64,000 nt of DNA from Methylacidiphilum kamchatkense Kam1 (lineage in GTDB: Bacteria; Verrucomicrobiota; Verrucomicrobiia; Methylacidiphilales; Methylacidiphilaceae): the NCBI RefSeq assembly GCF_007475525.1, contig NZ_CP037899.1, positions 620,001-684,000 of the forward strand, in the 5' to 3' direction. This document shows, piece by piece, positions 6,228 to 22,404 of the stretch. The position numbers were made by a program, and so were the translations under genes. The notes under the pieces are model-generated. The model was not told the origin of the DNA. It ran no database searches and was given only the letters and a program-made list of their open reading frames with translations. The number at the start of each line of letters is the position of its first letter. Positions within the stretch are counted from its first letter, which is position 1.

Positions 6228-6683
6228 ATTTTGAGGGTTAGCATTAGTCTTGCTTTCAACCGCAAGCACTTTTTAAAGCTGATGAATCCGATCGCAAGCG
6301 AGGAAGCTAGTTATACTGATGCTGGAGCATTGCAACTGATTGATTTGTTGTGGTTTTGCATTGATTCGAAGGCTCTGCCAATCCGCACAGAAGGCAAATG
6401 CTAAATTGGCTGCTGTAGCTTAATGGAACGTGTTTGCATGGTTCTCTAGTGCAACTTGTCTAAGCGTAAAACCGTTACTTAGCCGTCAGGAAGGCAGAAA
6501 AAAAAAGTCAAGCTGACTACGATTTAAAAAAATAGTTATTGTTCTAATAGCTATTAGGGGCGAACCCTAAATTCTCGGTTGCAGGAAAAACTACTCGGCT
6601 GCTAAAGATTGGTAAAATATCTATTCTGAGGAATGGAAAAAGCGAAAGTTTATGTTAATAGGAAGCGTCAAATTTATTTTGGG
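6228..6683. other. Intergenic region after hyfI, no gene seen
   Basis: 456 bases between two convergent genes. No supported reading frame is seen. One hairpin at 6554-6570 has arms TTAGGG and CCCTAA around a five-base loop; no T-tract follows it. The rest looks like decayed or non-coding DNA. Confidence 0.4.
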
Positions 6684-7916
6684 TCATTGGATCCTTCTTA
6701 TGAATTCTCTCAAAGAACTACAATTTTTCTGGATCCATCCACGAATCGCAACAAAAGCTGAAAGGGGGATGTAGAGGAAAGATAAAAAGAAAGGCAATCG
6801 ATAAGTTTTTACAATCTCTGAGGAGGGAAAACGAAGAGATTTGAGGATGAAGAAGAATTTATGTTTTTTGGAATCAAAGAGCTCGAGAAGCGTGAAATGA
6901 CGGGGTAGGGGGAAAGAAGAGGATCTTTTTGAGACAGAAAAAATTTCTTCTCTTGTTATCCAACTTTTTTCTAAAATATCAAAAACGGGTTCAGGGATAG
7001 GACTTTTATAGTAATTTTTTGATAATGCAAGACCCAATAAGCAGAATCGGTTCCAACCAAAACAAAAGGCTTTTTCAATCATTCTTTCCCAATCTTGTTG
7101 TGAAAAGTTTGCCCACAAAATGAATTGATGCAGATCTAAAAGATAACTCATTTTTTCCCATCGATGCTTGCTTCCATGAGTCAATAAAAAAAGAAGTTCA
7201 TTTTCTTTAGGCATCCTTTGAAGGGGAATATCCTCAAAAGCAGACATGGAAGATTCTTTCCATGTTGATTCCAAAAATTTTTTGTCCAATACCCTATTAA
7301 AACAGGGAGCCCAATGGAGCTCACAAATTGATGGGGCCTGATCCTCTTCAAATTTTTTTTTTAATAAAGTTAGATCTTTCTCCCAAAAAAAGAGCGAAGA
7401 AAGCTTATAGGGAGAATGGTTGTATGAATGGTATCCTAGTTTGGAATGAAGTAGAAAGATAGCTTTTTGGATAGCTGGGATTGGGACTAACAGGTCGATA
7501 TCGGTAATGGTCTTTGAAAAAAAATCTTCGTAGAGTCTTTGAGAAAGTTCCAATCCTTTCAAGGGTATTACTTGGATCCCATGATCATGGAACATAGACA
7601 GTATTTTTTGAAACTCATCCAAAAGAAAGATATTCCTTTTTGCAGTGTGTTTATTCAGTAGATGGAATTTTAAGTCGATATCTTGGGGAAGAAGAAAAGG
7701 AAAGTTATTTTTAAGCTTATTATAAACAATAGGCCATAAAGAATGCTGGAAGGAAAGTTCGAAAAATTGATGCCAGTCAAAGTTTTGTCTTGAAAAAATT
7801 TCTAAAAGTTCTGTTTTCTGTAAATCATCAAGTATTTTATTGCTTAAAAGAAGCAGTGCTTTTTGTTCAGGAGTTAATAAGATAAAATTGTTTTCTTTCT
7901 TTTTTTTAGTTTTCAT
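6684..7916 (-). CDS. Nucleotidyltransferase family protein (NTP_transf_5-like)
   Basis: A 410-residue soluble protein with the family core near residues 115-150: IPLKGLELSQRLYED followed by TDIDLLVP, in which the paired acidic residues are the expected metal ligands of the minimal nucleotidyltransferase fold. Further on, ELHW and LTHGSKHRWEK are also typical. Relatives of this family occur next to HPr-kinase-like, PqqD-like and peptide-tailoring genes (lasso peptide loci and the so-called HPr-rel-A system). Here it is transcribed away from such a set, sharing the upstream region 7917-8078. I infer that it acts on the same peptide or carrier, but the substrate is unknown. Confidence 0.75.
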   Translation of the reverse strand: MKTKKKKENNFILLTPEQKALLLLSNKILDDLQKTELLEIFSRQNFDWHQFFELSFQHSLWPIVYNKLKNNFPFLLPQDIDLKFHLLNKHTAKRNIFLLDEFQKILSMFHDHGIQVIPLKGLELSQRLYEDFFSKTITDIDLLVPIPAIQKAIFLLHSKLGYHSYNHSPYKLSSLFFWEKDLTLLKKKFEEDQAPSICELHWAPCFNRVLDKKFLESTWKESSMSAFEDIPLQRMPKENELLFLLTHGSKHRWEKMSYLLDLHQFILWANFSQQDWERMIEKAFCFGWNRFCLLGLALSKNYYKSPIPEPVFDILEKSWITREEIFSVSKRSSSFPLPRHFTLLELFDSKKHKFFFILKSLRFPSSEIVKTYRLPFFLSFLYIPLSAFVAIRGWIQKNCSSLREFIRRIQ

Positions 7917-8010
7917 TATATAAGATAGGCATATCTACTATACGATTATTAATATATATACTGTATTTTCTTTCGGAACTTTGGCATATTAAATTTGCTT
8001 GTCTTAGAAA

Positions 8011-8040
8011 TTAAATCTTTCTTAATCTCTCTTAATCTTT
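8011..8040 (+). promoter_or_regulatory. Three tandem 10-bp repeats upstream of the precursor genes
   Basis: TTAAATCTTT, CTTAATCTCT and CTTAATCTTT follow each other without a gap, one helical turn apart, 26 bases before the ribosome binding site of the first small gene. This spacing is what an OmpR/PhoB-type regulator would need. No confident -35/-10 pair could be assigned. Function is inferred only. Confidence 0.35.
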
Positions 8041-8078
8041 TTTAAAGGAATTGCAAACTTAACACAGGAGGTAATTAA

Positions 8079-8411
8079 ATGAATACAGAGTTAGATTTTA
8101 GTCAATTTGAGATGGAAACTTTGGAGTCGCGAGAGCTTTTTGCAGCGGCTGCTGTGCCTCATCATTTAATCAACTTGAATTTGCCCTTGGACCTTTCTTT
8201 ACAGGTGAATAATCCAACCAATGGACAACATATTATCAATCTCAATCTTCCAGCCGATCTATCCCTACACGTCAATCAGCCCAATTTATCAGGATTACTG
8301 ACAACGGTTTCGACAGTAACAACTCCTGTGGTGGGATTGGTAGGTGAAGTTGTTAGTCCATTATTGGGAACAGTTACTGGATTGCTTGGTTCAGTTTTAG
8401 CAATTGTTTAA
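8079..8411 (+). CDS. Small LExREL-leader protein 1 (candidate modified or exported peptide precursor)
   Basis: 110 residues, preceded by a strong AGGAGGT at 8066-8072. The N-terminus has FEMETLESRELFAAAAVPHH, which resembles the short LExRxLLA signal found at the start of many secreted planctomycete and verrucomicrobial proteins. After it comes a twofold repeat, INLNLPLDLSLQVN (about 32-45) and INLNLPADLSLHVN (about 53-66), then a Val/Leu/Gly/Thr-rich tail with PLLGTVTGLLG. After the leader there is no Lys, Arg, Cys, Trp or Tyr. The next gene shares the leader and the tail pattern. Neighbouring radical SAM, PqqD, kinase, HlyD and M50 genes suggest that it is their substrate. No experimental function is known to me. 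Confidence 0.8.
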   Translation: MNTELDFSQFEMETLESRELFAAAAVPHHLINLNLPLDLSLQVNNPTNGQHIINLNLPADLSLHVNQPNLSGLLTTVSTVTTPVVGLVGEVVSPLLGTVTGLLGSVLAIV

Positions 8412-8423
8412 AAAACAACAAAG

Positions 8424-8461
8424 TACTGGGCTTCTCTATTTCGGATAAGGGAAGCCCAGTA
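8424..8461 (+). terminator. Strong intercistronic hairpin between the two precursor genes
   Basis: An 11-bp perfect inverted repeat, TACTGGGCTTC (8424-8434) and GAAGCCCAGTA (8451-8461), starts 12 bases after the first precursor's stop. No T-tract follows, so it is more likely a partial attenuator or an mRNA-stabilising element that sets unequal expression of the two precursors than a full terminator. Confidence 0.55.
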
Positions 8462-8528
8462 TGCGATAGTTGGATGAAGTGCTTAAAGAGGGAGTCGGAG
8501 AAAGATATAGAGGAGGAAACAAGAAAAA

Positions 8529-8924
8529 ATGAAAGAGAATATAACTCACTGTGAGGAGGCAAAACTTTTTGAAGTAGAAGTACTGGAAGCGCGAGAGCTT
8601 TTTGCAGCAGTTGCGCTTCCTCACCACTTGATGAATTTAAATATGTCTGGAGAATTTTCGACGCAACCTAACAATTTTAATCTTGCCCCAGTAAATCATA
8701 GCCAGGTTGCTACTCCCTTTAGCGATCCAGGCACAAGTCAGTTGCCGATATATCTGCATCTAACTGTTGGAGGACCACAAGCTGCTCTTCAAATTGGAGA
8801 GCTGAATTTAGCTAAGGATCTCCAACCTTTGCTTGGTACCGTTAACGGGGTTTTGAATGTGGTGACTGGACTGACGAACGATTTGCTCAGTCCGCTTTTA
8901 ATAACCGTGCTATCGATTATTTAA
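8529..8924 (+). CDS. Small LExREL-leader protein 2 (candidate modified or exported peptide precursor)
   Basis: 131 residues with AGGAGG at 8511-8516. The leader reads FEVEVLEARELFAAVALPHH, matching protein 1 at most positions, and the following LMNLNM matches LINLNL. The core differs: a Pro/Asn/Gln-rich middle, then QIGELNLAKDLQPLLGTVNG, and a hydrophobic end LLSPLLITVLSII that echoes the tail of protein 1. The only Cys is in the leader (position 8). The conserved leader and tail with a variable middle are what one expects of paralogous substrates of one processing machine. Its role is inferred from the neighbourhood only. Confidence 0.8.
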   Translation: MKENITHCEEAKLFEVEVLEARELFAAVALPHHLMNLNMSGEFSTQPNNFNLAPVNHSQVATPFSDPGTSQLPIYLHLTVGGPQAALQIGELNLAKDLQPLLGTVNGVLNVVTGLTNDLLSPLLITVLSII

Positions 8925-8980
8925 ATGTTCTGTTAGGTTGCCGTTTATAAAAACAGAAAATTGAATAAGAGGAAAAGGAT

Positions 8981-9172
8981 ATGGAAGAAGCCCATAATAT
9001 AGCATTAATCAATCTGGAGATCTTTGAGGCAAAGCTCAAAGAAAAGATCAAATTTATGTGGAAGAATCCCCAATTCTCTCCATTGGGAAATTTAAGCCAT
9101 TTTTTGAATCAATTTCCAGATCCAAGAGCTCAACTTTTATCAGCAACTGCATTGGCGACAGTTGGCTTATAA
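8981..9172 (+). CDS. 63-residue ORF, in frame with the following HPr-kinase-like gene
   Basis: Starts with a good GAGGAAAAGG site and encodes 63 mostly helical residues ending LLSATALATVGL. I do not recognise it. It lacks the LExREL leader of the two genes before it. Its TAA (9170-9172) is followed in the same frame, without any further stop, by the kinase-like ORF. It may thus be the N-terminal part of one longer protein split by a nonsense change, or a real small gene. Confidence 0.45.
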   Translation: MEEAHNIALINLEIFEAKLKEKIKFMWKNPQFSPLGNLSHFLNQFPDPRAQLLSATALATVGL

Positions 9173-9193
9173 GGGCAGCATGTTTTCAAGTCT

Positions 9194-10090
9194 TTGAGGC
9201 GATTGCCAAATGAGAAATTCGTGATGGAGACTGGTGGAAATACTAGATTGTTGGGAAAAGCAGTAGGCTATGGCATTGGATTGTCCAGTGCTTTTCTAGA
9301 GTTTCCTTCCGCCGGTCCATTACTTTGGGGAATCTTTCCATTAACCGTTTCTTTAGTAAAGGCGTTTCCTGAATTTGATCCTAAAGACCTATCTGTTTCC
9401 ATAGGGCCAGTCAAGCTTTTAAAAAACCCAGAGAGGTTTGTCATTGGGGAACATTTTTTATTTACTCTTCAATCAACTCAAATCACTTTAGAGTGTATCC
9501 ATTTTATAGAAGATAAATTCCGATATTACCTTTATCAACTAGTTTTACCCCATTTTGCTCAGCTGATAGGCCGTCTTCTTTTTCTTCATGGTGGAGCGTT
9601 TGAGGTGGATTCACAAGCCGTGGGTTTGGTTGCCGGTTCTGGAGGAGGGAAGTCCACCTTACTTTCCTCCTTTTTAGACTTGGGATATAACCTAATTGCA
9701 GATGATCGAGTTGGTTTTGTTTTGGAAGCAGAAGAACCATTAGTGGTACCTTCTCATCCCTATTTGAGGAACTATCGAAAAGAAGAAGATATTGGAAAGC
9801 CAGTAAGAAAGCTATCAGAGAAGATACTCCCTCTGCGCACCATTTTTTTTCTGAGGTGGACAGAAAAAGAAGAACCTTTTATTGAAAAAGTTGAACCAGG
9901 CAAAGCTTTCCAAAATCTTTTTTCTAACAGTGTTTATTTTCCAGATGTAAAGATTCATGCTAGGAAAATATTGCAATGGCTACCACAAATGCATACCTTT
10001 CGTGTTTTTCTGCCAAAAGGAAGAATAGAAAAATTACCCCAGGTTTGTAATATGATCTTGTCCTTAACCTTTAATGGCAAAAGACGATAA
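9194..10090 (+). CDS. HPr kinase-like P-loop protein (HprK-related)
   Basis: Up to 298 residues. The core resembles the C-terminal domain of HPr kinase: LHGGAFEV (131-138), Walker A GSGGGKST (148-155) and LIADDRVGF with the paired Asp at 170-171. HprK-related proteins are known next to PqqD-like and nucleotidyltransferase genes, and in some lasso peptide loci they phosphorylate the precursor. The start is weak: TTG at 9194 or ATG at 9224, neither with a clear ribosome site, and the frame is open back to a TAA at 9170. Its stop overlaps the ATG of the radical SAM gene by one base, so the two are coupled. Target unknown; one of the small proteins is a fair guess. Confidence 0.75.
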   Translation: MRRLPNEKFVMETGGNTRLLGKAVGYGIGLSSAFLEFPSAGPLLWGIFPLTVSLVKAFPEFDPKDLSVSIGPVKLLKNPERFVIGEHFLFTLQSTQITLECIHFIEDKFRYYLYQLVLPHFAQLIGRLLFLHGGAFEVDSQAVGLVAGSGGGKSTLLSSFLDLGYNLIADDRVGFVLEAEEPLVVPSHPYLRNYRKEEDIGKPVRKLSEKILPLRTIFFLRWTEKEEPFIEKVEPGKAFQNLFSNSVYFPDVKIHARKILQWLPQMHTFRVFLPKGRIEKLPQVCNMILSLTFNGKRR

Positions 10091-11076
10091 TGATAACTTA
10101 TTCGGTCTTAGGAATAATGCTTAGGAAAAAATGCCCACTGGCTTGTGCGCATTGTATTACCGATTCATCACCCCAAGCAGAGGGGATGCTTGAGGAGTCC
10201 TTTGTTTTTTCTGTTCTGGAAGAGGCAGTTGGACTAACTCCAGTGGTGAGTTTTACGGGTGGTGAAGCTTTTTTGAATAGCGAAATATTAATCCGATGTA
10301 TCCTTAAAGCCAAAGAATTTGGTTTTAAAGTGACCGCAGTAACAGGATGTGGATGGGTTCGAACCGAAAAACATGCTTTCTCGGTCATCGAAGCGGTTAA
10401 AAAAGCAGGCTTAGACAGGCTTTGTATCAGTTGGGATCAATATCATTTAGCTTTTAAAAACGGATGGAAATTACAAGCAGTCGCGAAAGCTGCTTGGCAG
10501 TGGCAGATTCCATTAGTCATTCGAAGCGTCATTACCCCTCTTTCCTACAATGAAAAGGATCCATTTCTACCGGACTTAGGGGAAGTCCAATATCACCTAG
10601 AAAAGGTTCCTCTTATAAAGCTGGGAAGGGCCAATGCCCTTCCAGAAGAAGACTTTTTCTGGGAATATTCGCCTCCGACAGGCGTATGCGTGGTGATCTT
10701 ATCACCTGTGGTTGAATATGATGGTAGGGTGTTTGCTTGTTGTGGTCCTTCCCATTATGCTAGCCATTATTCGCCTTTGGTACTGGGAGATGCTAGAAAA
10801 ACATCTTTAAGAGAAATTTTGTCGAAAGCAAAAGAGGATCCAATCTTAGAAATCATTGCTCTGCTTGGGCCTTACGGACTATTCAGGATTCTAAAAGATA
10901 GGTTTCCTTTGATCAATGTTCCTGAAAGAGCACGTTATTCAAGCATTTGCGATCTGTGTATGGATATTTTAAATGAGCCACAATTAGTGGAAAAGCTGCG
11001 GGAATATTTTGTGGGAAAGGATGGCAAAAGCTTTTTAGTGGCTTCAAGAATGATGGAAAAAATTCAACCAAGCTAA
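10090..11076 (+). CDS. Radical SAM/SPASM-type peptide-modifying enzyme
   Basis: 328 residues. The N-terminal CPLACAHC gives the CxxxCxxC motif (C15, C19, C22) that binds the SAM-cleaving [4Fe-4S] cluster, followed by FTGGEAF for SAM binding. The C-terminal part has YDGRVFACCG, PLVLGD and SSICDLCMDIL, a SPASM/twitch-like arrangement for an auxiliary cluster, as in PqqE-class maturases. It starts inside the stop of the kinase gene and precedes a PqqD-like gene, the usual partner that delivers the peptide leader. It most likely modifies one of the small LExREL proteins; the chemistry cannot be told from sequence. Confidence 0.85.
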   Translation: MITYSVLGIMLRKKCPLACAHCITDSSPQAEGMLEESFVFSVLEEAVGLTPVVSFTGGEAFLNSEILIRCILKAKEFGFKVTAVTGCGWVRTEKHAFSVIEAVKKAGLDRLCISWDQYHLAFKNGWKLQAVAKAAWQWQIPLVIRSVITPLSYNEKDPFLPDLGEVQYHLEKVPLIKLGRANALPEEDFFWEYSPPTGVCVVILSPVVEYDGRVFACCGPSHYASHYSPLVLGDARKTSLREILSKAKEDPILEIIALLGPYGLFRILKDRFPLINVPERARYSSICDLCMDILNEPQLVEKLREYFVGKDGKSFLVASRMMEKIQPS

Positions 11077-11085
11077 CAAAAAAGA

Positions 11086-11433
11086 ATGCCCCTCTTGCGG
11101 GTCTTAAAAACGAGGTTGCTTATGGATGTTGCTAGCTCATGTAAAAAAGTGAAGATCCCAGAGTGGATTAGTTATGAACAAATAGAAAATGAATTGATTC
11201 TTCTCAATACAGTAGATTGGAATTATTATAGGCTAGATGTCTATGGCACAGTTGTATGGAAAAAACTGATCGACTATGGTGGAGATGTCAATGCCTTAAA
11301 AAAATGGGTGCTTGAGCATTTCGAAGGGAATCCTTTTCAAATTCAAAACGACATAGATTGTTTAATCAAAGCGCTTATAGAAAAGAACCTTTTGGTCATA
11401 GACCAAGGCCAACAAAAGGATCCTTTGGCTTAA
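11086..11433 (+). CDS. PqqD-like peptide chaperone
   Basis: 115 residues with the PqqD fold pattern: a beta-rich N-terminal half around ELILLNTVDWNYYRLD, then VWKKLIDYGGDVNALKKWV and a C-terminal helix ending LIEKNLLVI. PqqD domains bind precursor leaders and hand them to radical SAM enzymes. It follows the radical SAM gene by nine bases. The start may be ATG 11086 or ATG 11122; the latter has GAGG nearby. Together with the genes before it, this is a standard module for ribosomal peptide modification. Confidence 0.75.
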   Translation: MPLLRVLKTRLLMDVASSCKKVKIPEWISYEQIENELILLNTVDWNYYRLDVYGTVVWKKLIDYGGDVNALKKWVLEHFEGNPFQIQNDIDCLIKALIEKNLLVIDQGQQKDPLA

Positions 11434-11472
11434 TCATTTCTTAGCATAGAGATTATTTTACTGCGTGAAATA

Positions 11473-13602
11473 ATGGAAAGTGAAAAAAATATATTGCTTT
11501 CTTTTTTTTCACTCCCTCCAGATACCTTTTTTGAAAGACTTCTATTGTTCTCTGGCTCTTTTTCAAAACCAGAAGACCTGTTTGTAATTGTTAGTCAATA
11601 TTCTATTTTAAATATCGGCATAAAGGGGATGCGAATCGGTCGGTTTATTGGAGGTCGTTGGGAAATAGTCTGGTCTTCTTCTCAAGAGCCAAATCAATGG
11701 GAAACTGATTACGAAATGAGAGTTTTTTTTATCCAGTGGTTCAACAAAACCTTTTTAGAAAAGCATTCCTGTTATTTAGCAAAGACTCCATCGGCCATAG
11801 ACTCCAATCATCCACAGCATGAAACACTTCAAGGTTACAATACGACTGGTCTACATCATCTTTTTTTCCCACTGTTTTTTGGAGATACTTCTTGGGGAGT
11901 CGTCCATTACTGGTTAGAAGAGACAGAAACACTTGACCAAAAATATAGATGGCTTTCTTCGCTTAGTAGCACCCTTGGAAATTGCTTAAAGGCGCTTGCT
12001 TTTGCTGGAAAACTTCTTTTTCAAAATTCCCAGGCTTCTTTTTCCAATACTTCCGATGGACTCTATCTGAAGTGTCTAGAAGACTTGGCAGTGGAAAACG
12101 ATACAGAAAGAATAGAGTTTTTAGTTGTTAATTATGTGCGGGAAATTGCTGGTTGCGATCGAACCTGTCTCTTTACTGTTCCTTTAACAAACAAAGGTTT
12201 TTCTTTTTTAACCACTCAGGATTTTGCAAAGGCCAATGTGTTTGAACTCAAAGCGGTCAGTTCTCTTTCGAAAATCCATAAGCAGTCAGATCAAGCACTT
12301 CTATTAAAAGAGGCTGGAATAGCCCTTTTCAGAGCTGCCAATCCTCATCATTTCCAAGACCTACCGCCGAAACCGAAAAAATCGGTTTTTGCTATGTTTT
12401 TTGATGAAGAACAAGCAATAGAAGATCAGAAGATTAATACGGTCGAAAAAAAAGAAAGTAGCCCGCTACGGATCGGTTTTGCTATGCGGGAATCTGCAAC
12501 AAAGGAGAGGCCTTTGGCTATAATGCGTTATTTTCAGAATATTCCTATGAATTGGCTAGCTGCTTTTCCTTTGATGGATCAGCAACAAAGAGTTTATGGG
12601 TTTATTTCCTGGGAAGGGAAGGAAAAGATCATTCCAAGTCTAGATCTATTTAATCTCTTACAAAAGATTGCGATTGTTGGAGGCAAAAGCGTTGCCAGAG
12701 CCTATTTCAACCAGAAAAAATTTTGGATTTTCTCCAAAACGACAAGGACTCATCCTCTTTTAAATCCTTTGGTCTTTTATTCATCTTTGCTTGTATTGAT
12801 CCTCATTGTAGCTTTTTTCCCTCTACCAATGAAAATAAAGGGGAATGCGGTGTTAATTCCTTCTTTTGAAATGTCAGTTCCTGCCCTGGTCTCAGCAAAA
12901 ATCGAATCGATCCACGTTCAAATTGGAGACTATGTGAAGAAAGGGACACTGCTTATTCAGCTGGATCCGACAAATATTCTTCTTAAGATAAAAGAAGTAG
13001 AACAGGATTATAAAAAAAATATGGCTGAAGCTGACCTTGCTCAAAATTTGAAACAGGAAACAGCAATGCAGCTATCCAGACTGAATGCCTTAAAATCCCA
13101 AGCGGTCCTAAAGAGTTTGTATAATGACTTTCATAATAGTTCTATTCGAGCTCCAATCGACGGAGTTGTCATGGGGCCCAGTAATTTAATGTCTCGGAGA
13201 GGGGATATCCCGCAAGTCGGAGAAGTTCTAGTCCAACTTGCTGATCCGAGGTATTGGAAAGTTAAGATTGCTTTAAGAGAACAAGATTTTATATATCTAG
13301 GCCGGGTGATTGAAAGACAAAAAGAGCCGCTTGTGGTGTCTTTTCGACTTGCTGCTGATCCATCTAAAAGTTATAGACTTCTTTTAAGATCTCTTTCCCA
13401 GTTTATTAGTGGAGTAGAGACCGAAGGAAAAAAATATGAATTTTCTTTGATCATTCCATGGGAAGAGAAAAACATCGATCCGCTACTTTTGAAGAAAGGA
13501 TTACGTGGTCAGGCGAAGGTTTATGTGGGGCTTAGGCCATTGGCCTATATAGCTTTTCGTGATGTCATTGGGTTTCTCAGGCTTCATGTGTTTTTTTGGT
13601 AG
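11473..13602 (+). CDS. GAF-like domain/HlyD family adaptor protein
   Basis: 709 residues. The N-terminal 400 are soluble and GAF-like in pattern, followed by one membrane helix near residues 430-450 (SSLLVLILIVAFFPLP) and a HlyD-type periplasmic part: a biotinyl-lipoyl half-motif IHVQIGDYVKKGTLLIQLD, a coiled-coil stretch, then RAPIDGVVMGP and a C-terminal GLRGQAKVYVG. Proteins of this architecture are usually encoded beside M50-HlyD proteins in planctomycetes and related phyla, probably forming a secretion or processing complex. Here it sits between the PqqD gene and a second HlyD gene. Confidence 0.75.
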   Translation: MESEKNILLSFFSLPPDTFFERLLLFSGSFSKPEDLFVIVSQYSILNIGIKGMRIGRFIGGRWEIVWSSSQEPNQWETDYEMRVFFIQWFNKTFLEKHSCYLAKTPSAIDSNHPQHETLQGYNTTGLHHLFFPLFFGDTSWGVVHYWLEETETLDQKYRWLSSLSSTLGNCLKALAFAGKLLFQNSQASFSNTSDGLYLKCLEDLAVENDTERIEFLVVNYVREIAGCDRTCLFTVPLTNKGFSFLTTQDFAKANVFELKAVSSLSKIHKQSDQALLLKEAGIALFRAANPHHFQDLPPKPKKSVFAMFFDEEQAIEDQKINTVEKKESSPLRIGFAMRESATKERPLAIMRYFQNIPMNWLAAFPLMDQQQRVYGFISWEGKEKIIPSLDLFNLLQKIAIVGGKSVARAYFNQKKFWIFSKTTRTHPLLNPLVFYSSLLVLILIVAFFPLPMKIKGNAVLIPSFEMSVPALVSAKIESIHVQIGDYVKKGTLLIQLDPTNILLKIKEVEQDYKKNMAEADLAQNLKQETAMQLSRLNALKSQAVLKSLYNDFHNSSIRAPIDGVVMGPSNLMSRRGDIPQVGEVLVQLADPRYWKVKIALREQDFIYLGRVIERQKEPLVVSFRLAADPSKSYRLLLRSLSQFISGVETEGKKYEFSLIIPWEEKNIDPLLLKKGLRGQAKVYVGLRPLAYIAFRDVIGFLRLHVFFW

Positions 13603-13694
13603 AATCTCAGATTGTATCTGGGGAGAAAAAATAGATCGATATAAAATTGTTTCTTTATAGAAAAGAAAGATTTAATGAAAAACATAATGAGAAA

Positions 13695-14600
13695 ATGGAG
13701 TGTATTTTCTCTGTCTTTTGGGTTCGTTTTTTGCTTTGGTGGAAAATGGCCTTAAAAGGAGAAGAATTGTTTATTAAAGACAATCTTGATGCTACTCAAT
13801 CTGAATCCTCCCTAGAGCCTCTACTGGAAGAAAAAGGTTCCTACCGAGCCGTACTACTTCCCATTGCAGATCTAAGACTGAGTGCTAAGGCTTCTGGGAT
13901 CCTCGAAAAGTTTTTTTTTGAAGAAGGAGCATGTGTCAAAAAAGGAGACATCATAGCCCAGTTAAACAGTGAGGATGAAAAAGCAGAGATTGCAAGAGCT
14001 GAGGCAGAAATAGGAGTGCATGAAGCTGAAGTTGAAAAGGCAGAAGTGGAATTTAAAAGAATTGAAGGGTTGTACAAAGAAGAAATCGTTAGTCCTAAAC
14101 AATATGAGGAGGCTAAATATCAATATCAAATGGCTCAAAATAAATTAAAAGAAGCCAAGGCTTTATTAATAACTGCTCAGAATCGGCTAGAATCCAAAAT
14201 GGTCCGCTCTCCTATAGAGGGTGTATTTTTTAAAAAATTAAGGAATGAGGGAGAGTCTGTGGAAAGATTGGAACCGGTGGCTCGAGTGATTGATGTTTCG
14301 GAACTTCAAATGGTAATTTATTGCGATTCAAAACACTTTGGAAAATTGCATCCCAAAGACAAACTTTCCGTTGAATTGGTTGATGGACCTTGTGCTGGAA
14401 AAAGAGTGGAAGCGACCGTTGTGTATGTGGATCCCTTCCTTGATCCTGCTAGTGGGACTTTTAGAGTAAAACTGGTGATGCATGCCTCAAAAGAAGTGGT
14501 TGCGGGGATTACTGCTGAGGTCGTAATACCGGAAGATAAAAAGGAATTCCCTTCCCATTCTCCAATCATAGGCTTGAATGTAGGAGAAAAGATCAAATGA
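13695..14600 (+). CDS. HlyD/RND periplasmic adaptor protein, N-terminus probably frameshifted
   Basis: About 301 residues of a typical membrane fusion protein: VLLPIADLRLSAKASGIL, GACVKKGDIIAQLNSED, a long coiled coil rich in Glu/Ala/Lys (about 95-155), then VRSPIEGVFFKK. The frame has several weak starts (TTG 13647, ATG 13695). A much better signal peptide, starting MKNIMRKWSVFSLSFG, begins at ATG 13675 in another frame and ends at a stop at 13753. One extra A in the run 13743-13746 would join it to this protein. So either the gene has lost its export signal or the sequence misses a base here. Confidence 0.7.
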   Translation: MECIFSVFWVRFLLWWKMALKGEELFIKDNLDATQSESSLEPLLEEKGSYRAVLLPIADLRLSAKASGILEKFFFEEGACVKKGDIIAQLNSEDEKAEIARAEAEIGVHEAEVEKAEVEFKRIEGLYKEEIVSPKQYEEAKYQYQMAQNKLKEAKALLITAQNRLESKMVRSPIEGVFFKKLRNEGESVERLEPVARVIDVSELQMVIYCDSKHFGKLHPKDKLSVELVDGPCAGKRVEATVVYVDPFLDPASGTFRVKLVMHASKEVVAGITAEVVIPEDKKEFPSHSPIIGLNVGEKIK

Positions 14601-14663
14601 AAAATCTAGAGCGTGCTTAGGGGAATTTTTTTTGAGTTAGCATTTATTTTTTTCAACAATTAC

Positions 14664-14810
14664 ATGTTAATAGAAAAAGAATCGACGATGAAATTTGTCT
14701 TTCGAATGGTTTTGGATGTTAACTTCACGGTAAAACAAGTATTACTGATAGGAAAAAAAGGATTTACGAAGGCCAGAGATAATAATATTGCCTCTCTCTT
14801 GCTAGGCTGA
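14664..14810 (+). CDS. 48-residue ORF of unknown function
   Basis: A short basic frame between the HlyD and M50 genes, starting MLIEKESTMKFVF. No motif is recognised, no ribosome binding site is clear, and it lacks the LExREL leader. It could be a chance frame or a gene remnant. Confidence 0.2.
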   Translation: MLIEKESTMKFVFRMVLDVNFTVKQVLLIGKKGFTKARDNNIASLLLG

Positions 14811-14828
14811 CAATTGTTTGCGGTCAGC
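14806..14828 (+). terminator. Possible hairpin before the M50 gene
   Basis: GCTGAC and GTCAGC pair around an 11-base loop. There is no U-tract, so the terminator role is doubtful. Confidence 0.25.
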
Positions 14829-14855
14829 TTCTAAGAGATTAATTGATTTTTAATT

Positions 14856-16331
14856 ATGACTTTGGGAGGATTCAGCCAACAGTCAACGACAAAAGAAAAA
14901 ATTGTTCCTTATAGATTAAGAACTGATCTAATTTTTCAGAAACAAATTTTCGGTAACAAAACCTATTATATTGTCAAAGACCCCTTGGGACTTTCCTATT
15001 ATAGGTTTCCTCCTCAAGAAGCTTTTCTTGCCACCCTTTTCGATGGGAAAAGAACAACCGAAGAGATAGCTGAAATTTTTAATGCCCACTGGCCGCATCG
15101 GAAGATTAATCCGGCAGAAGTGCTGCGATTTGCTTCAATTCTTAGTCGAAGAAATCTGACTATTCTTCCAGCAAACCAATGGATGGATCAACTCCCCAGA
15201 AAAGCTTCTTCTTTTTTTCATCAGTTAAGCAAATTTTTTGTAAAGATTTTTTTCATCAAATTTCCCCTTGTTCGTCCCTCTTCTTGGCTTGACAGGATTG
15301 TTCATCGTCTCTGGTGGTTGTGGTCTTTTCAAGGGGTAGTGCTAACCGTTTGTTTTTGGCTCTTCACTCTTCTTTTTCTTTTTTTCCATCGCACTTCTTT
15401 TATAACCAATCAGATCCAGTTTTTTTCTCCACAAAACATATTCTTACTTTATTTAGCCATCATCATTGACAAGAGCCTTCATGAGTTTGGGCATGCGACT
15501 ACATGCCGGCGTTTTGGGGGAGAGATTCATGAAATGGGTGTAGGCTTATTCTTTTTTATCCCTGTAGGATATGTGGATGCTTCAGATAGCTGGGTGATTC
15601 CGGATAAGAAAGCAAGGATTTTTGTTGGCTTGGCTGGAGTTTATACAGAATTAATTGTTGCCTCCATAGCCGCTTATTTTTGGGTTTTTCTTCCCTTAGG
15701 TCTGGCAAAAAATCTTGCCTTTAACCTTATGGTTACGGCTAGTGTGACGACCCTCTTTTTTAATTTCAATCCTTTGATGAAGTTTGATGGCTATTATGCA
15801 TTAGTTGATTTGCTTGAAATACCAAATCTTCGGGAGAAATCTTTTGCGTATTGCACAGCAAAACTCCAGGAATGGCTTTTAGGATATCAAGATCCATCTA
15901 ATCAAGGGAAAAAAAACGAGTCCATAAATGCATGGATCTTTTTTATTTATTCCATTTTGTCTACAGTCTACATGGCTTATCTTTGTCATTCGATTGGCCA
16001 AGTTGTTAGAAATTTTCTTAAGCCGATAGGGTTGGAAAGAGTAGGCGAATTTTTAGGATTTTCTTTAGAGGTTGCTTTTGTAATGGCTATTTTATTAAGG
16101 ATTTTCTTTCAACCCCTCTTGATGATCTCTAAAACCGAAGGCATAAAAAAGAGCCTCTGCAAGCTTCAATGGGTAGCCATAGGAGGGGTTGCCTTGGGCA
16201 TACTCTGTATGCTTCCTGTAAGAGAAAAGGTCCGGACGGTGGGAGTGGTTCGATCAGATTTTGGACAAAATGTAACGAGTCCAGATGGGGGATTGTTCAG
16301 GAGATATGGGTCTATAGTGGTGAACAGGTAA
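14856..16331 (+). CDS. Membrane zinc protease (M50/site-2 type) with PqqD-like N-terminal domain, frameshifted
   Basis: The visible 491 residues begin with a PqqD-like winged-helix region (about 18-105), then membrane helices with the zinc motif HEFGH at 209-213 and the second metal motif NPLMKFDGYY around 305-314. The family cleaves substrates in or near the membrane; those linked to HlyD proteins probably process or secrete peptides. The frame leaves the expected path at a G-run (16287-16291), after VTSPDGG, and stops at 16331, while the expected HlyD continuation follows one frame away. Restoring one base there and one near 16729-16740 would give a single protein of about 723 residues ending at 17025. 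Confidence 0.75.
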   Translation: MTLGGFSQQSTTKEKIVPYRLRTDLIFQKQIFGNKTYYIVKDPLGLSYYRFPPQEAFLATLFDGKRTTEEIAEIFNAHWPHRKINPAEVLRFASILSRRNLTILPANQWMDQLPRKASSFFHQLSKFFVKIFFIKFPLVRPSSWLDRIVHRLWWLWSFQGVVLTVCFWLFTLLFLFFHRTSFITNQIQFFSPQNIFLLYLAIIIDKSLHEFGHATTCRRFGGEIHEMGVGLFFFIPVGYVDASDSWVIPDKKARIFVGLAGVYTELIVASIAAYFWVFLPLGLAKNLAFNLMVTASVTTLFFNFNPLMKFDGYYALVDLLEIPNLREKSFAYCTAKLQEWLLGYQDPSNQGKKNESINAWIFFIYSILSTVYMAYLCHSIGQVVRNFLKPIGLERVGEFLGFSLEVAFVMAILLRIFFQPLLMISKTEGIKKSLCKLQWVAIGGVALGILCMLPVREKVRTVGVVRSDFGQNVTSPDGGLFRRYGSIVVNR

Positions 16332-17025
16332 AACCAGGTCAGCCGCTATTGAAACTAAGAAATGACAAAGTTGAGACTGAGACACAGCTTGCAAGACTTG
16401 ATTTAGCCTTAAAAATGGTTGGGTTCTCAAACAAAAGAACATTTCAACAAAAGGATGAGGAGGCCTCTAAGTCAAAAGAAATTCAAGTAATGAAGAGCCG
16501 TTACGATTATTTTTTGAAAAAAAAAGAACAGCTTTTTCTCCGCTCATCTATTGATGGCATCATTGTTAGCCCAAATGTGGAATCTTTGAAAGGAAGATAT
16601 TTTAAAGCCGGAGAAACCATTCTCAAAATTAGGGACATGCATCATTTTTCGCTTGTAGCGCCACTGAATCAATCCCAATCAAGGATTGTGTATTCTGGAG
16701 CTGAAGTCAAAGGGATCTGGATAAGCACAAAAAAATATTTCATAGTCATGTTGCCCATGTGAGCCAAAAAATGGCAGATGTCTCTGAATTTGATCCTGGT
16801 CATCTTGTTCCTTATGGAGGGAAAGTTCCACTAATTCCTTCGAATATAAAAAAAGAATACGAAAAAAATCCTTTTTATTTTGCCTATATTCCAGTGGAAA
16901 GCCCTTCTCAGTTTATGGTGGAGGGATTGAGAGCCAAAATTGTGATTAAAGGTAGAAAAACGATACTTGGCAAAAAAATCTATCGGTTTTTGACTGCCCT
17001 TCTTTTTTATAAACATGAAGAATAG
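16292..17025 (+). pseudogene. C-terminal HlyD-like part of the M50 protein, in two shifted frames
   Basis: From 16292 one frame reads IVQEIWVYSGEQVKPGQPLL, a clear lipoyl-domain continuation of the protease, and runs through a coiled coil and RSSIDGIIVSPNVESLKG to a stop at 16762. The next frame takes over near 16741 with HSHVAHVSQKMADVSEFD and ends at 17025. Both breaks correspond to one missing base, at 16287-16291 (G5) and about 16729-16740 (A7 followed by T3). Either the gene is decaying or the assembly under-counts homopolymers. Confidence 0.65.
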
Positions 17026-17481
17026 ATTGGCAGCTTCTAACCATAAAACATCGCAAAGAGTTTGTTGCTTCAATCTCCTATTGGATATGTTTGTTTGTCA
17101 TTTTGATAGTTGCAATCTTGCAGTCTGAGCTTTCAGGCTCATAGCATTGCGATCCATACAATGGAATAAAGGCAGTCTTATCAATGGAACTACTAGTGCT
17201 TCTGAAACTTTAGACATCTTCTTGATGGATTGGTTATGCAATTATTGATGTAAACAACACTAGCTCTCTTGCCCTGTATTGGGAGAGATTGAGCCAAAGG
17301 AATGTGTTGTAAAACAGCGTGCTGCTATTGATCCTTATGTAGCATGATTAATCGATAGGAAACCAAAATAAAAAAAGATGGATGATACACACCATATGGA
17401 ATCAGCAATAGGGAAGATTCTGTAGAGGCTTTTTTTTTAATTTTAATAGCTTTGGTCCAATTTTTGCTTGAAGGAAAAAAG
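17026..17481. other. Intergenic region, no gene seen
   Basis: 456 bases separating the peptide/M50 locus from the amidoligase operon. No supported ORF, RNA or repeat is seen. GAAGGA at about 17470-17475 is the ribosome site of the next gene. Confidence 0.35.
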
Positions 17482-18999
17482 ATGGGAGCGCCAATTCCTC
17501 AGATTTCTCAAGCAAATGGAGAAAAGGATACGCGATTTGAATTTCTTTCTCAGAATTATAGAAAACTCCTTTTGGATGGCCCTGATGAATCTTTAGATCC
17601 AAAGGGTGAACCGAAAAAAGAATACAAAGCTCTGTGGGAGCTTATCCTTTCAAGGGTTGGAAGGGATAGATTACTCAGCGCACAGAATACAGCAAATGAT
17701 AGGTTACGGCAGCTTGGTGTTCACTTCGTACTAAAAAACGCCAAAGAGAAAACCGAAGAAAGAATTTTCCCTTTCGATATTCTTCCGAGACTTATCCTCA
17801 AAAGAGAATGGGACAAGATTCAAAGAGGACTTATTCAAAGAACAATGGCTTTGAATCTATTTATAGAAGATGTCTATGGAAAGCAACGGATTCTAAAAGA
17901 AAAGGGTATTGACCAAGCGTTGGTCTTAAGCTCTTCAGGTTTTCTTTCTCAAATGATTGGAGTGAAAGTGCCTAGGGGCATCTACGCAGCGATTTGTGGT
18001 TGTGATCTGCTCAAAGACGAAAATGGAAATTTTGTCGTACTCGAAGATAACCTTAGGATCCCAAGTGGGGCTGCCTATATGCTGAATTGCAGAAAAGTTT
18101 TAAAGGAGAGTTGTCCTTTTTTCTTCGAACTCAACAAACCTTTGCCTATACAATCCTATCCCACAGTTCTTTTAAAAACCCTTCTCGATCTTCATCCTTC
18201 TGAGGTTTCTCAAGAACCAGTGGTGGCGGTGCTGACTCCAGGCCCTTATAATTCTGCCTATTTTGAACATGCATTCCTTGCAAATCAGATGGGAATACCA
18301 CTTGTCGAACCCAAAGATCTTGTTGTTGAAAATGGAACTCTTTATTTCCAGTCTAAGACCCATAAAAAACGGATATCGATTCTTTATAGACGCATCGAAG
18401 AAAGCTTCATGGATCCTGTCGCATTTCGGCCGGATTCATTGATTGGAGTTAGAGGATTGTTTAGCTCTTTTATAGAAGGTCGACTTAGTTTGATCAATGC
18501 TCCCGGTTGTGGCATTGGAGATGATAAAGCCATCTATCCGTATGTTCCAAAAATGATCCGTTATTATCTGGATGAAGAACCCATCCTAAGGAACATTGAA
18601 ACCTATTCATGTGTAGATCCTAAGCAACAGGCTTTTGTAGTGAATAATCTAGAGGGGTTGGTTGTTAAGGAAGTGAATCAATCCGGTGGATTCGGGATGC
18701 TTATTGGACCCGTAAGTTCTTCTAAAACGCGAGAAGAATTTAAAAAAAGAATTCTAGCCCATCCCCGAAATTATATTGCACAGCCACTGATCCATTTCTC
18801 AAAACTACCTTGTATGAGCGGTTCGGGAATTGAACCACGAAGGGTTGACTTGCGTCCCTTTGTCTTAATGGGTAAGGAACCAAGGGTTGTTCCTGGAGGG
18901 TTAACACGAGTGTCTATAAGCTGGGATTCTTTTATAGTCAATTCGTCTCAAGGAGGGGGAAGCAAAGATACATGGATCATTGAGAATGAGGGAGGGTAA
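17482..18999 (+). CDS. Circularly permuted ATP-grasp amidoligase
   Basis: 505 residues of the circularly permuted type 2 ATP-grasp family (DUF404/DUF407). Conserved pieces are GIYAAICGCDLLKDENGNFVV, ILYRRIEESFMDPVAFR, LINAPGCGIGDDKAIYPYVP, the Gly-rich VVKEVNQSGGFGMLIGP and RRVDLRPFVLMGKEPRVVPG. All active-site segments look present. The family is predicted to form amide or peptide bonds with ATP. ATG 17482 has GAAGGA upstream; a longer TTG start at 17452 is less likely. It is followed by alpha-E, a second ATP-grasp and a transglutaminase, a widespread conserved operon whose product is unknown. Confidence 0.88.
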   Translation: MGAPIPQISQANGEKDTRFEFLSQNYRKLLLDGPDESLDPKGEPKKEYKALWELILSRVGRDRLLSAQNTANDRLRQLGVHFVLKNAKEKTEERIFPFDILPRLILKREWDKIQRGLIQRTMALNLFIEDVYGKQRILKEKGIDQALVLSSSGFLSQMIGVKVPRGIYAAICGCDLLKDENGNFVVLEDNLRIPSGAAYMLNCRKVLKESCPFFFELNKPLPIQSYPTVLLKTLLDLHPSEVSQEPVVAVLTPGPYNSAYFEHAFLANQMGIPLVEPKDLVVENGTLYFQSKTHKKRISILYRRIEESFMDPVAFRPDSLIGVRGLFSSFIEGRLSLINAPGCGIGDDKAIYPYVPKMIRYYLDEEPILRNIETYSCVDPKQQAFVVNNLEGLVVKEVNQSGGFGMLIGPVSSSKTREEFKKRILAHPRNYIAQPLIHFSKLPCMSGSGIEPRRVDLRPFVLMGKEPRVVPGGLTRVSISWDSFIVNSSQGGGSKDTWIIENEGG

Positions 19000-19004
19000 A
19001 GCTT

Positions 19005-19916
19005 ATGATAGATCATCGGGTAGAAAATATTTATTGGATGGCCAGATACATGGAAAGAGCCTTATTCAGTTTGAATATTGGCAAAAGCTATCTGGGATAT
19101 GGTTTGGAAGCAAGTCAAGAAAAATGGGGCTATTGTTGGCAAAGAATCAAAAAAGGAATGCGTATTTTCAGTGCTTCAGATCCTACCCATAGCTCCTTAC
19201 CCATGTCCCTGTTTTTTCTTTTGTTTGACTGCGAGAATCCCTTATCTGCTTTGTCTTCCTTGTTTTCAGCCAGAGAAAACGCGAAAATTTTGAGGGATAT
19301 TCTTCCTGTTGCGCTTTGGGAGCAACTAAACGAGGCCTATTTTCTTCTTTCTTCGACAACAGTCACTTCGAGTCTGCAACCTTCTCATTATCCATTGATT
19401 ACAACGACTATTGAAAAAATGCTCTTGTTTGATCAGCTGGAAAGCTACCTTTTCGAAGAAGATGAACTCTGGGCATGGCTAAAAGTAGGTGAATACATTG
19501 AAAAAATTGGAAATTTTGCAGCCTTTCTTTTCGCCTACGATCCGACGGAAAACAAAGACAATCCTTCTTTTGAGGAGTGGGAAGCTTTTCTTAATTCGCT
19601 CTTTCTTTTGGACCTGTTTAGAAAAAAAGTAGGATTGGCTTCGCTAAGCTTTGATCAGATCGCTTCTTTTATCTTAATTGCAAACAGGTATCCCTACTCG
19701 ATTCTATCGCAATTGGAAAAACTCATTGGCTGTTTTGGAATAGTCTCTCAAGTGTGGACAATAGATATTGCTCAGTCAACAGCCAAAGAACTTTTGGACA
19801 ATGTCGTTGATTCTTGCCAGAAAGAAGTTTCATCAGAAAACAAAAAAAAATTGTTTCTAGAAATTCAAATCGCATGCAATTCGATCCACCAGCACCTTTT
19901 GTCAGCTATTGGTTAA
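19005..19916 (+). CDS. Alpha-E domain protein
   Basis: 303 residues, helical, beginning VENIYWMARYMERALFSLN, the signature of the alpha-E (DUF403) family. These proteins always accompany circularly permuted ATP-grasp enzymes and are predicted to act with them in peptide or amide synthesis. It begins five bases after the ATP-grasp stop with GGGAGGG as ribosome site, so the two are in one operon. Confidence 0.85.
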   Translation: MIDHRVENIYWMARYMERALFSLNIGKSYLGYGLEASQEKWGYCWQRIKKGMRIFSASDPTHSSLPMSLFFLLFDCENPLSALSSLFSARENAKILRDILPVALWEQLNEAYFLLSSTTVTSSLQPSHYPLITTTIEKMLLFDQLESYLFEEDELWAWLKVGEYIEKIGNFAAFLFAYDPTENKDNPSFEEWEAFLNSLFLLDLFRKKVGLASLSFDQIASFILIANRYPYSILSQLEKLIGCFGIVSQVWTIDIAQSTAKELLDNVVDSCQKEVSSENKKKLFLEIQIACNSIHQHLLSAIG

Positions 19917-19995
19917 AACTGTTGCACAATTTTTTTTTATTTTTCTTTTTAAATATTTCAATGTAACTGATTAACACTAATAAAAATATTAAACT

Positions 19996-22404
19996 GTGAT
20001 CATTTGGAAAAATATTTTAAAGAACGCCGCTTTCCTTGATGAGGAGAACTTAGAAAAATCCCAGCAATCTCTATCTCTTTATTTTAAACTGAACGGAGTC
20101 TGTCCTTCTTTCTATGAAGAGAACCTAGATTATTATATTGATCCATGGCCTCTGGTTCTTTCTGTGGATGATTGGATGGAGATTCGAGTAGGGGTGGAAC
20201 AGAGGATGTTGGCTTGGCGAAGGTTTTTAAAAGACCTCTACTTTGAAAAATCGATTTTTAAAGATAAAGTCATTCCTTTTGAACCATTTCTTTCTTCCGA
20301 CCAATATAGGCGTGAATGCGTGGGGTTAGAACCTCCTGGTGGAGAATATCTCTACATTTATTCTTGTGAAGTAGCGAAAGAAGAAAAGGGGAAATGGATT
20401 GTATTGAGAGACGAACTGGAACAGCCGCGCAACCTCATGCTTTCAGAAGAAATTAGGAAAGGACTCAAAGAGGCTTTGCCACAGCTATTTGAAGGTTTGG
20501 AAATTATGCCTTTAACTGGTTTTCCAGAAAGGATGCTCGAGGCTTTTAGTCAGAATCTATCTGATGATAAAAATTGTCAGATCGCCGTTGTTGCAGCAAC
20601 GGCTGAGGATTGGGAAGCAGCGATATTGGCTAGAAGGATGGGCATTCCTATGTTTTTACCCTCTGATCTTGTTGTTTTGCAAGGAAAGCTTTATGCGAAA
20701 ACGCTAAGTGGACTGGAACCGATTAACATTCTTTTTCGAAGACTGCCTGATAGTTTGCTTGATCCAATTGCAACCCGTTGTGGAGCCCAAGAAGGGATAG
20801 CTGGGCTTTTCTGGTGTCTGCGTAAAGCAACTCTTAGACTCATCAATGCAGCTGGTTGCGGGATTACTACCGATCCACTCCTTCAATCTTACACTTCGAA
20901 AATGATCCGATATTATTTAGGAGAAAAGCCGCTGCTCAACTCTTTGCCTACTTATCCAGCTTATGATCCTGATGTCTTTTCGCTATTTCTGGACAGCTTC
21001 CAGAATTATTTCCTAAAAGACCGGAATGGACATAGTGTAGTTTTAGAAAAGCTACTTGGAAAGGATGAAAAGACAATTTCTAGATTAGATTGTAGATCCT
21101 TGGTCATTCAAAAAAAGCCTCAGTTAAAAAAATTCCCTTCTTTTTATCGTACTACCCTTTCACATAAACCGACTGCTTTGGTCCTTTTTGGAGTTGTTAA
21201 AAATGGACAGCCTGAATTGCTGCCTATTATGTTTGGGAAAGTTATTTCAGATGTTACATTTCAGGAAAATAATCAGTCGCATCTCTATAAAGACGTCTGG
21301 CTTTTGCAAGAAAATAACTCTTGGTCTTTTTCAAATGTAAATGCATGTGTCAGTGTTTCTATGAGAAGTCGCATTGCTCCTTTAAGCCGAGTTGCTGAAT
21401 CGATGTACTGGATGGGACGATATCTGACTAGGAGTATGCAACTCAATCACATGCTACTAACAGTTCGATCCTATGGAGATGAGGCAATGAAAGGAGAGCG
21501 TGGAGAAGCTTTTCAGAATCTTTTATCAGAAGTCCTCGGCTATTTTGTAATTCCTTCACATTCTTTTCATTCAGCAGGACCAATAGATTTTTCGATGCTT
21601 TTTTCTTCTTTTTTCGCTGGAACAGATTGGTACGATTCAGTGGTCAGCTGTATATCGAGATGTTATGATAATGGAAGAAAAATTCGCGACTCCCTTCCTC
21701 CTGAAGTATGGCTTGCCCTCAGCTCACTCTTTTTTAGTCTTCAAACTCAACCTCATGTAAGATCTTCTATTAATTATGATCAAAGATTAAACGAATTTTC
21801 TATAGCCTCAGACAGGCTCCTTGCTATCATTAATGAACATCTTCTACGCAACGAGCTTTGGAAGTTTTTTCAGATTGGAACATTTTACGAAAAAGGGAAG
21901 TTTAGTCTTCACTTAATTAAACTTTGTACAAAGATCACAGAAAAAAAAGAGGCTTTGTTCCGAGGATTTTTCCTTCAGATTGCCTTGGAATGGATACTGA
22001 AGCTTACATCGGCCTTGTATGCTTACAGAAGTCTTTATCATTATCCCTTTTCTCCAAAGAATCTCATCGAACTTCTTCTCTTCGATAGGCAGTTCCCTCG
22101 TTCAATCTATTTTTGTTTGAGCCAGATCGAAGCGATGCTGCAATTTACTGAAAGGATTCGAAACATGTCACAAAAACCCCTTTCATTTGTTCGGTATATG
22201 GAGGCAAAATTGAAACGATGGGCGGACGAAATTGATTCAAACAAAGAGAAAGACAAAGACAACATTACCCAATTTACACAGTGGATTGAAGAGATAGAAA
22301 AGGAATTTTATGAATTTCATTCTCTCCTTTCTGATGAGTATTTGACCCATCAATCGACCTTTGAAAATGTGGTCATGGAGGAAGGAAAATTTGCAACTGA
22401 TTGA
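19996..22404 (+). CDS. ATP-grasp/alpha-E fusion protein with degenerate ATP-grasp part
   Basis: 802 residues from a GTG start. Residues 1-460 align by eye with circularly permuted ATP-grasp proteins (LEPPGGEYLYIYSCEVAKEE, NILFRRLPDSLLDPIATR, LINAAGCGITTDPLLQSYTS), and 470-800 form an alpha-E domain (PLSRVAESMYWMGRYLTRS). The later ATP-grasp segments are eroded: no Gly-rich SGGxG loop, and LVLFGVV stands where the partner gene has VDLRPFV. It may be a non-catalytic or altered partner of the first ligase. The gap to the preceding gene is 79 bases; the next gene starts nine bases on. Confidence 0.83.
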   Translation: MIIWKNILKNAAFLDEENLEKSQQSLSLYFKLNGVCPSFYEENLDYYIDPWPLVLSVDDWMEIRVGVEQRMLAWRRFLKDLYFEKSIFKDKVIPFEPFLSSDQYRRECVGLEPPGGEYLYIYSCEVAKEEKGKWIVLRDELEQPRNLMLSEEIRKGLKEALPQLFEGLEIMPLTGFPERMLEAFSQNLSDDKNCQIAVVAATAEDWEAAILARRMGIPMFLPSDLVVLQGKLYAKTLSGLEPINILFRRLPDSLLDPIATRCGAQEGIAGLFWCLRKATLRLINAAGCGITTDPLLQSYTSKMIRYYLGEKPLLNSLPTYPAYDPDVFSLFLDSFQNYFLKDRNGHSVVLEKLLGKDEKTISRLDCRSLVIQKKPQLKKFPSFYRTTLSHKPTALVLFGVVKNGQPELLPIMFGKVISDVTFQENNQSHLYKDVWLLQENNSWSFSNVNACVSVSMRSRIAPLSRVAESMYWMGRYLTRSMQLNHMLLTVRSYGDEAMKGERGEAFQNLLSEVLGYFVIPSHSFHSAGPIDFSMLFSSFFAGTDWYDSVVSCISRCYDNGRKIRDSLPPEVWLALSSLFFSLQTQPHVRSSINYDQRLNEFSIASDRLLAIINEHLLRNELWKFFQIGTFYEKGKFSLHLIKLCTKITEKKEALFRGFFLQIALEWILKLTSALYAYRSLYHYPFSPKNLIELLLFDRQFPRSIYFCLSQIEAMLQFTERIRNMSQKPLSFVRYMEAKLKRWADEIDSNKEKDKDNITQFTQWIEEIEKEFYEFHSLLSDEYLTHQSTFENVVMEEGKFATD

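Follow-up and report, generated by a model that had tools for sequence, protein, structure and literature searches.

The window analysed here is a 64,000-nucleotide stretch of the genome of Methylacidiphilum kamchatkense Kam1, a member of a genus of methane-consuming bacteria from volcanic vents (contig NZ_CP037899.1, positions 620,001 to 684,000). It contains, at positions 6684-17025, a locus for two small proteins, A1 and A2, which begin with a common LExRELFAA segment and are candidate substrates of a peptide-modification and export system. A divergent nucleotidyltransferase gene (NTP_transf_5) is followed on the plus strand by the genes for A1, A2, a third small protein (A3), an HPr kinase-related (HprK-like) protein, a radical S-adenosylmethionine (SAM)/SPASM protein, a PqqD-like protein, a GAF-HlyD adaptor, an HlyD adaptor and an M50-HlyD fusion protein. 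Pfam cut-offs were passed by NTP_transf_5, radical SAM/SPASM, PqqD, HlyD and M50; the GAF and HprK matches were sub-threshold. An earlier note, made from the sequence alone, had described this set without A3, and every open reading frame (ORF) named in it was found at its coordinates. Three further Methylacidiphilum genomes (G042, G054 and G072) carry all these genes in an identical order, and across the four species synteny and purifying selection hold up even where protein identity falls to about 60%. A1 and A2 accompany the full gene set in 4 of 4 Methylacidiphilum genomes examined, while relatives of A1/A2 and of the radical SAM protein were found in none of the other 285 Verrucomicrobiota genomes searched, two of them from the same family.

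A1 (8079-8411, plus strand; 110 amino acids, aa) comprises a putative leader with the core LESRELFAA (8121-8147), an internal NLNLPxDLSLxVN repeat and a hydrophobic C-terminal tail. It is 80-96% identical to its orthologues, with ratios of nonsynonymous to synonymous substitution rates (dN/dS) of 0.07-0.31. A2 (8529-8924, plus strand; 131 aa), identified by orthologue synteny, alignment and dN/dS, has the corresponding segment LEARELFAA (8583-8609) and a hydrophobic tail. In the alignment of A1 and A2 from four species, which delimits both motifs, F10, E11, E13, L15, E16, R18, L20, F21, A22 and A23 are invariant. The tails are common to both proteins and conserved, with an invariant S-P-L-L and C-termini reading IV, VV, II or VI; A1 contains no cysteine. 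A Shine-Dalgarno-like AGGAGG precedes both genes, so that the earlier description of two LExRELFAA ORFs with ribosome sites and hydrophobic tails, on the same strand as the gene set, holds. A3 (8981-9172, plus strand; 63 aa) lacks LExRxL, has counterparts at the same place in G042, G054 and G072 (65-90% identity, dN/dS 0.06-0.29) and may be an alternative substrate or an accessory protein. Pairwise dN/dS of A1, A2 and A3 was 0.06-0.39 wherever dS could be computed; with their conservation and synteny, this identifies all three as real genes. Between A1 and A2, a strong 15-bp stem-loop without a T-run (8423-8462, plus strand), which the earlier note did not mention, occurs in all four genomes, in the most distant of them (G072) with the same shape and an unrelated sequence. 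It may allow A1 to be expressed at a level different from that of the genes downstream.

In A1 and A2, small residues come after an LExRxL[LF] segment close to the N-terminus; both proteins score below the cut-off of PF07595 and do not match NF012209. A search of NCBIfam gave no match for A1, A2 or A3, including the YydF precursor family TIGR04077, which the Bacillus subtilis precursor does match. A resemblance of the B. subtilis YydF leader (LEFKGLLDES) was considered and set aside as suggestive only, the Macrococcus homologues reading LQVKSLLND or LQVKSLLDD without the E.

The M50-HlyD gene (14856-17025, plus strand), which the earlier note had read as one ORF, is broken up in the window: two single-nucleotide losses within homopolymer runs, at about 16289 and 16729, divide it into 14856-16331, 16169-16762 and 16759-17025. 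It is intact in three relatives (727-731 aa). Profile matches, orthologues and an AlphaFold model of the L007 protein (mean predicted local distance difference test, pLDDT, 82.8) predict three domains. Model residues 19-109 resemble TbiB1, a leader-bound recognition element (RRE) of ribosomally synthesized and post-translationally modified peptides (RiPPs), with Z 9.8 and a root-mean-square deviation of 2.8 over 84 residues (window 14898-15170, plus strand, by alignment with the model). Residues 194-325 resemble the site-2 protease RseP (Z 9.9), the core with HExxH lying at 15423-15818 (plus strand), and residues 457-718 resemble MacA-type membrane-fusion adaptors (Z 17.5). Outside these ranges none of the PDB matches listed, mostly adaptors, covered the model, and nothing is concluded for these parts. 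The 41 M50-HlyD proteins compared share without exception H213, E214, H217, N309, P310 and D315, among them HExxH and the second-motif Asp. Pfam PqqD exceeds its cut-off at the N-terminus of two alphaproteobacterial relatives. The daptide intramembrane protease model is matched by 41 of 41 aligned homologues and the epipeptide protease YydH/LiaK by 38; the best family match of the window protein is the daptide leader protease MpaP (NF041824), at 177 bits and thus short of the cut-off of 300.

Homologues of the M50-HlyD protein were found in 61 of 289 Verrucomicrobiota genomes. Thirty-nine neighbourhoods chosen by M50-HlyD alone were compared with 20 control regions from the same genome set. 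A gene with N-terminal LExRx[LF]L-x-[AG] is present in 15 of the 39 and in none of the controls (Fisher p 0.001, the loci not being phylogenetically independent); the 15 are a lower bound, since most motif genes are giant and many extend beyond the retrieved sequence. When the residues of these N-termini were shuffled, a mean of 0.11 and at most 3 motifs resulted against 16 observed, and permutations of the motif letters were scarcer. Small residues (SA, AA, AG, DG) follow the motif everywhere. In other Verrucomicrobiota and in Proteobacteria, genes for giant LExRxLLSA proteins adjoin the M50-HlyD gene, which is accompanied by GAF-HlyD and HlyD and in many cases by TolC and a short ATPase of the SecA-like type. 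On proteobacterial plasmids, where the annotated order is LEPR-XLL giant, HlyD, PqqD/site-2 protease, three records annotate the giant as LEPR-XLL. The motif in unannotated plasmid giants was predicted beforehand and then found, and all eight checked carry it (three annotated as LEPR-XLL, four at the annotated N-terminus and one upstream of a doubtful start); two annotated LEPR-XLL proteins read IEPR and MEPR instead of LEPR. The motif giants beside homologous sets and on plasmids bear out the assignment of A1 and A2 to the HlyD/M50 export set. LExREL is a motif of giant secreted proteins and does not mark modified peptides in general.

The short SecA-like ATPase (about 670 aa) is found in 17 of the 39 loci and a TolC-like gene in 16, each in none of the 20 controls, and the ATPase is possibly a dedicated export motor. 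ATPases of about 620-730 aa stand beside M50-HlyD, HlyD, TolC and LExRxL giants in Verrucomicrobiota (L054, L056, L058, L060, L061, L062, L068, L071 and others) and Alphaproteobacteria (L114, L115, L116, L123). The M50-HlyD set is also carried by Citrobacter and many Escherichia coli plasmids (L117, 9647-11779; L119), and the Citrobacter giant starts with LESRQLFDGAA, close to LESRELFAA. A DUF3467 gene lies between the giant-protein and adaptor genes of the alphaproteobacterial loci L115, L116, L120 and L123. At L057 (G272:C1, about 941600) a PF07595 search gave an 8942-aa open frame with an LExRxL start adjoining M50-HlyD. Across the 289 Verrucomicrobiota genomes PF07595 was unusable for co-occurrence, every match being below cut-off, at noise level and also ringing in control genomes.

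The radical SAM/SPASM gene (10090-11076, plus strand) overlaps the HprK-like gene by 1 nt and encodes a putative peptide epimerase. The best NCBIfam match of its product is the YydG family (TIGR04078, 114 bits, cut-off 300), and its sole sequence matches in the PDB are B. subtilis YydG/EpeE (8ai1/8ai6, E 3e-20, residues 7-303). The CxxxCxxC motif (C15, C19, C22) and the pair C217 C218 are invariant. Cys218 corresponds to EpeE Cys223, the second Cys of a pair kept in 10 of 10 homologues aligned and the proposed hydrogen donor (PMC8326336). Contexts of radical SAM relatives in Rhizobium, Halocatena, Streptomyces and Tropicibacter were inspected, and none reproduces the Methylacidiphilum set. The Rhizobium relative lies in a plasmid cluster (L107, 4269-10156) of a DUF5969 small protein, a B12-radical SAM protein, the YydG-like protein and a methyltransferase, a candidate RiPP cluster. 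YydG-like genes of G239 and G230 were discarded as coincidence: an M50 gene is near in G239 with unrelated genes between, and G230 has the same neighbourhood without M50.

The remaining genes encode an HprK-related kinase-like protein (9194-10090, plus strand; HprK_rel_A 3e-6, below cut-off, Hpr_kinase_C 0.013; best 26.4 bits against a curated cut-off of 200, with a P-loop GSGGGKST visible in the sequence), a PqqD-like stand-alone RRE (11086-11433, plus strand; 31.3 bits, above cut-off), the GAF-HlyD adaptor (11473-13602, plus strand; profile searches and orthologue synteny), an HlyD/RND-type periplasmic adaptor (13647-14600, plus strand; RND_mfp 153.8 bits, above cut-off) and the nucleotidyltransferase (6684-7916, minus strand; 139 bits), whose synteny is conserved and whose membership in the system is uncertain.

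Three described peptide systems and one family of large extracellular proteins share parts with this locus. The epipeptide operon of B. subtilis (yydFGHIJ/epeXEPAB) likewise combines a precursor, a YydG/EpeE-type radical SAM enzyme with Cys223 and an M50 metalloprotease in one operon; in Methylacidiphilum the precursors have 110-131 aa and LExRELFAA, HprK-like and PqqD genes are added, the protease is fused to an RRE and HlyD, HlyD adaptors replace the ABC transporter, and Asp210 is not conserved. In daptides, an RRE-fused intramembrane protease removes ELExMEAP leaders from peptides with aliphatic cores (PMC10036551). Shared with these are the RRE N-terminal to the M50 protease (MpaP) and the presence of several short precursors that have LE in their N-terminal motif and an aliphatic core, so that by analogy the ELExMEAP leader and core parallel LExRELFAA and the hydrophobic tail. 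The Methylacidiphilum protease differs in its score below the equivalog cut-off (300) and in its HlyD domain; MpaB/C/D/M-type genes are absent from the locus genes described, and A1 and A2 end in V or I, without the invariant C-terminal Thr. Lasso peptides are phosphorylated or glycosylated by HPr-kinase homologues and nucleotidyltransferases (PMC8498205), which makes a role of the kinase and the nucleotidyltransferase plausible here. The tailoring genes of paeninodin and pseudomycoidin (HPr-kinase homologue, nucleotidyltransferase, PqqD-type RRE) are alike, whereas a lasso cyclase, a B2 protease and a C-terminal Ser in A1/A2 are lacking. The LEPR-XLL/planctomycete extracellular proteins (NF012209, PF07595) share the N-terminal motif and the neighbouring HlyD, GAF-HlyD and M50-HlyD genes, but most are between 500 and more than 10,000 aa long, and SecA-like and TolC genes often accompany them while tailoring genes do not.

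We propose, with a probability of about 0.5, that A1 and A2 are precursors whose leader is bound by an RRE and which undergo EpeE-like epimerisation, site-2 cleavage and HlyD-type export. The N-terminal FExExLExRxLFAA segment would be bound by the N-terminal RRE of the membrane-bound RRE-M50-HlyD protein, and perhaps also by the stand-alone PqqD protein, which would present A1 and A2 to the tailoring enzymes. Before export the radical SAM enzyme would take the C-alpha hydrogen from residues of the Val/Ile/Leu type, which probably lie in the hydrophobic C-terminal part, and a hydrogen returned from Cys218 would leave D-residues. Phosphorylation or another decoration of hydroxyl groups may be the task of the HprK-like kinase and possibly of the nucleotidyltransferase. 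Cleavage near LF|AA by the site-2 protease would follow, and the product, which may be a peptide of the cell surface or one that acts on membranes, would leave through the HlyD/GAF-HlyD/M50-HlyD assembly and an unlinked TolC, many TolC-like proteins being encoded in the genome and none within the locus. The computations show that the genes are real and syntenic, that motif and exporter are linked across phyla, which domains the fusion is predicted to have, and that the radical SAM protein is an EpeE homologue with the Cys conserved. Leader processing and export have good support as a whole, whereas the binding of the leader, the site of cleavage, the export route, epimerisation and the roles of kinase and product are inferred.

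Since RRE-M50-HlyD adjoins LExRxLLSA giants in other bacteria, the most likely role of LExRxL is that of a leader recognised by this RRE-protease-exporter, to which Methylacidiphilum added a RiPP-type tailoring module for small substrates. A wider statement is put forward tentatively: LExRxLL may be a leader of the RiPP type, recognised by an RRE and removed by a site-2 protease that is fused to an adaptor, in a so far unrecognised cross-phylum secretion pathway for giants. This pathway would in many cases include a SecA-like ATPase and a TolC of its own, and in Methylacidiphilum it would have merged with radical SAM epimerisation to yield small secreted proteins with D-residues. The tie between LExRxL and the RRE-site-2 protease-adaptor protein points to a concrete candidate for what reads, cuts and exports it; Methylacidiphilum would supply very small natural substrates for this mechanism (about 110 aa against thousands) and possibly a case of peptide epimerisation beyond the known epipeptides. 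The open-access literature searched contains no description of this link and names no export machinery for LExRxL; subscription journals and preprints lay outside the search, so the novelty of the link is provisional. Of the novelty of the whole set, as first claimed, the combination is special to Methylacidiphilum, while the export set with LExRxL substrates is widespread, also without tailoring genes.

Several observations weigh against the proposed modification and export of A1 and A2. The TIGR04078 score lies below its cut-off; in place of EpeE Asp210, the residue mutated in structure 8ai6, Methylacidiphilum has Ser or Ala; and relatives of similar closeness keep the CC pair in non-epipeptide contexts, so that the pair does not single out epimerases. 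The M50-HlyD gene reads as frameshifted in the window genome, and the HprK-like gene of G042 contains an in-frame TAG (L007, around 6461-6463). The AlphaFold model of A1 has low confidence (pLDDT 44), with just a leader helix and a tail helix, and does not give the mature form. The locus has no ABC or SecA-like motor, and a search of the genome for SecA-like motors gave just the canonical SecA of 1022 aa. Since homologous export sets elsewhere lack tailoring genes, export does not require modification.

This last point also favours a rather doubtful alternative, in which A1 and A2 are LExRxL proteins of the usual kind, surface-bound or secreted, that leave the cell unmodified, as such proteins do elsewhere, and the kinase, radical SAM and PqqD genes form a separate RiPP unit with A3 as precursor. 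A3 lies directly before the kinase gene and is highly conserved, but it lacks a hydrophobic core like that of known epimerised peptides, and A1 and A2 have conserved hydrophobic tails with the invariant S-P-L-L and, like RiPP precursors, a two-part architecture. The M50 proteases of daptides and epipeptides, moreover, work on the modified peptide itself. Peptide modification, as claimed earlier, is plausible in view of the EpeE-like radical SAM protein, the daptide/epipeptide-type protease and the predicted RRE fold; A1 and A2, in preference to A3, are putative substrates of the radical SAM protein.

It is unlikely that the radical SAM enzyme modifies A1 and A2 by another chemistry, such as a cross-link, a C-C bond or an oxidation. 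The sub-threshold score, the loss of Asp210 and the relative in the DUF5969/B12-radical SAM/methyltransferase cluster speak for it, but EpeE is the sole PDB sequence match, in an alignment that spans the full length and includes the SAM motif as well as the CC pair, and thioethers would require the Cys that A1 lacks. Relatives such as that of the Rhizobium cluster are not known epimerases. With the EpeE homology and the Cys residue set against the score, the Asp change and these relatives, epimerisation is the leading, unproven chemistry suggested by the sequence.

That LExRxL is an uncleaved sorting or anchoring motif, with the M50 part just a membrane channel or scaffold, is very improbable. 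LExRxL is catalogued just as a planctomycete cell-surface motif (PF07595; PMC8567305), and cleavage here is predicted from sequence; yet the catalytic HExxH and second-motif Asp are invariant in the 41 proteins, the nearest family is the leader-removing daptide protease, and small residues follow the motif throughout. Least likely is that the genes are neighbours by chance or that the locus is decaying and functionless, for which the frameshifts in the window and the stop codon in G042 might be cited. Against this stand the conserved synteny and selection; moreover, the gene that is broken differs between genomes, and of the three breaks two are single-base homopolymer losses, consistent with sequencing error.

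Elsewhere in the window, two adjacent TolC/OEP-like ORFs lie on the minus strand at about 39687-42210. After the locus, two circularly permuted ATP-grasp/Alpha-E genes are found (17452-22404), of which at least the ATP-grasp gene is syntenic in the relatives.

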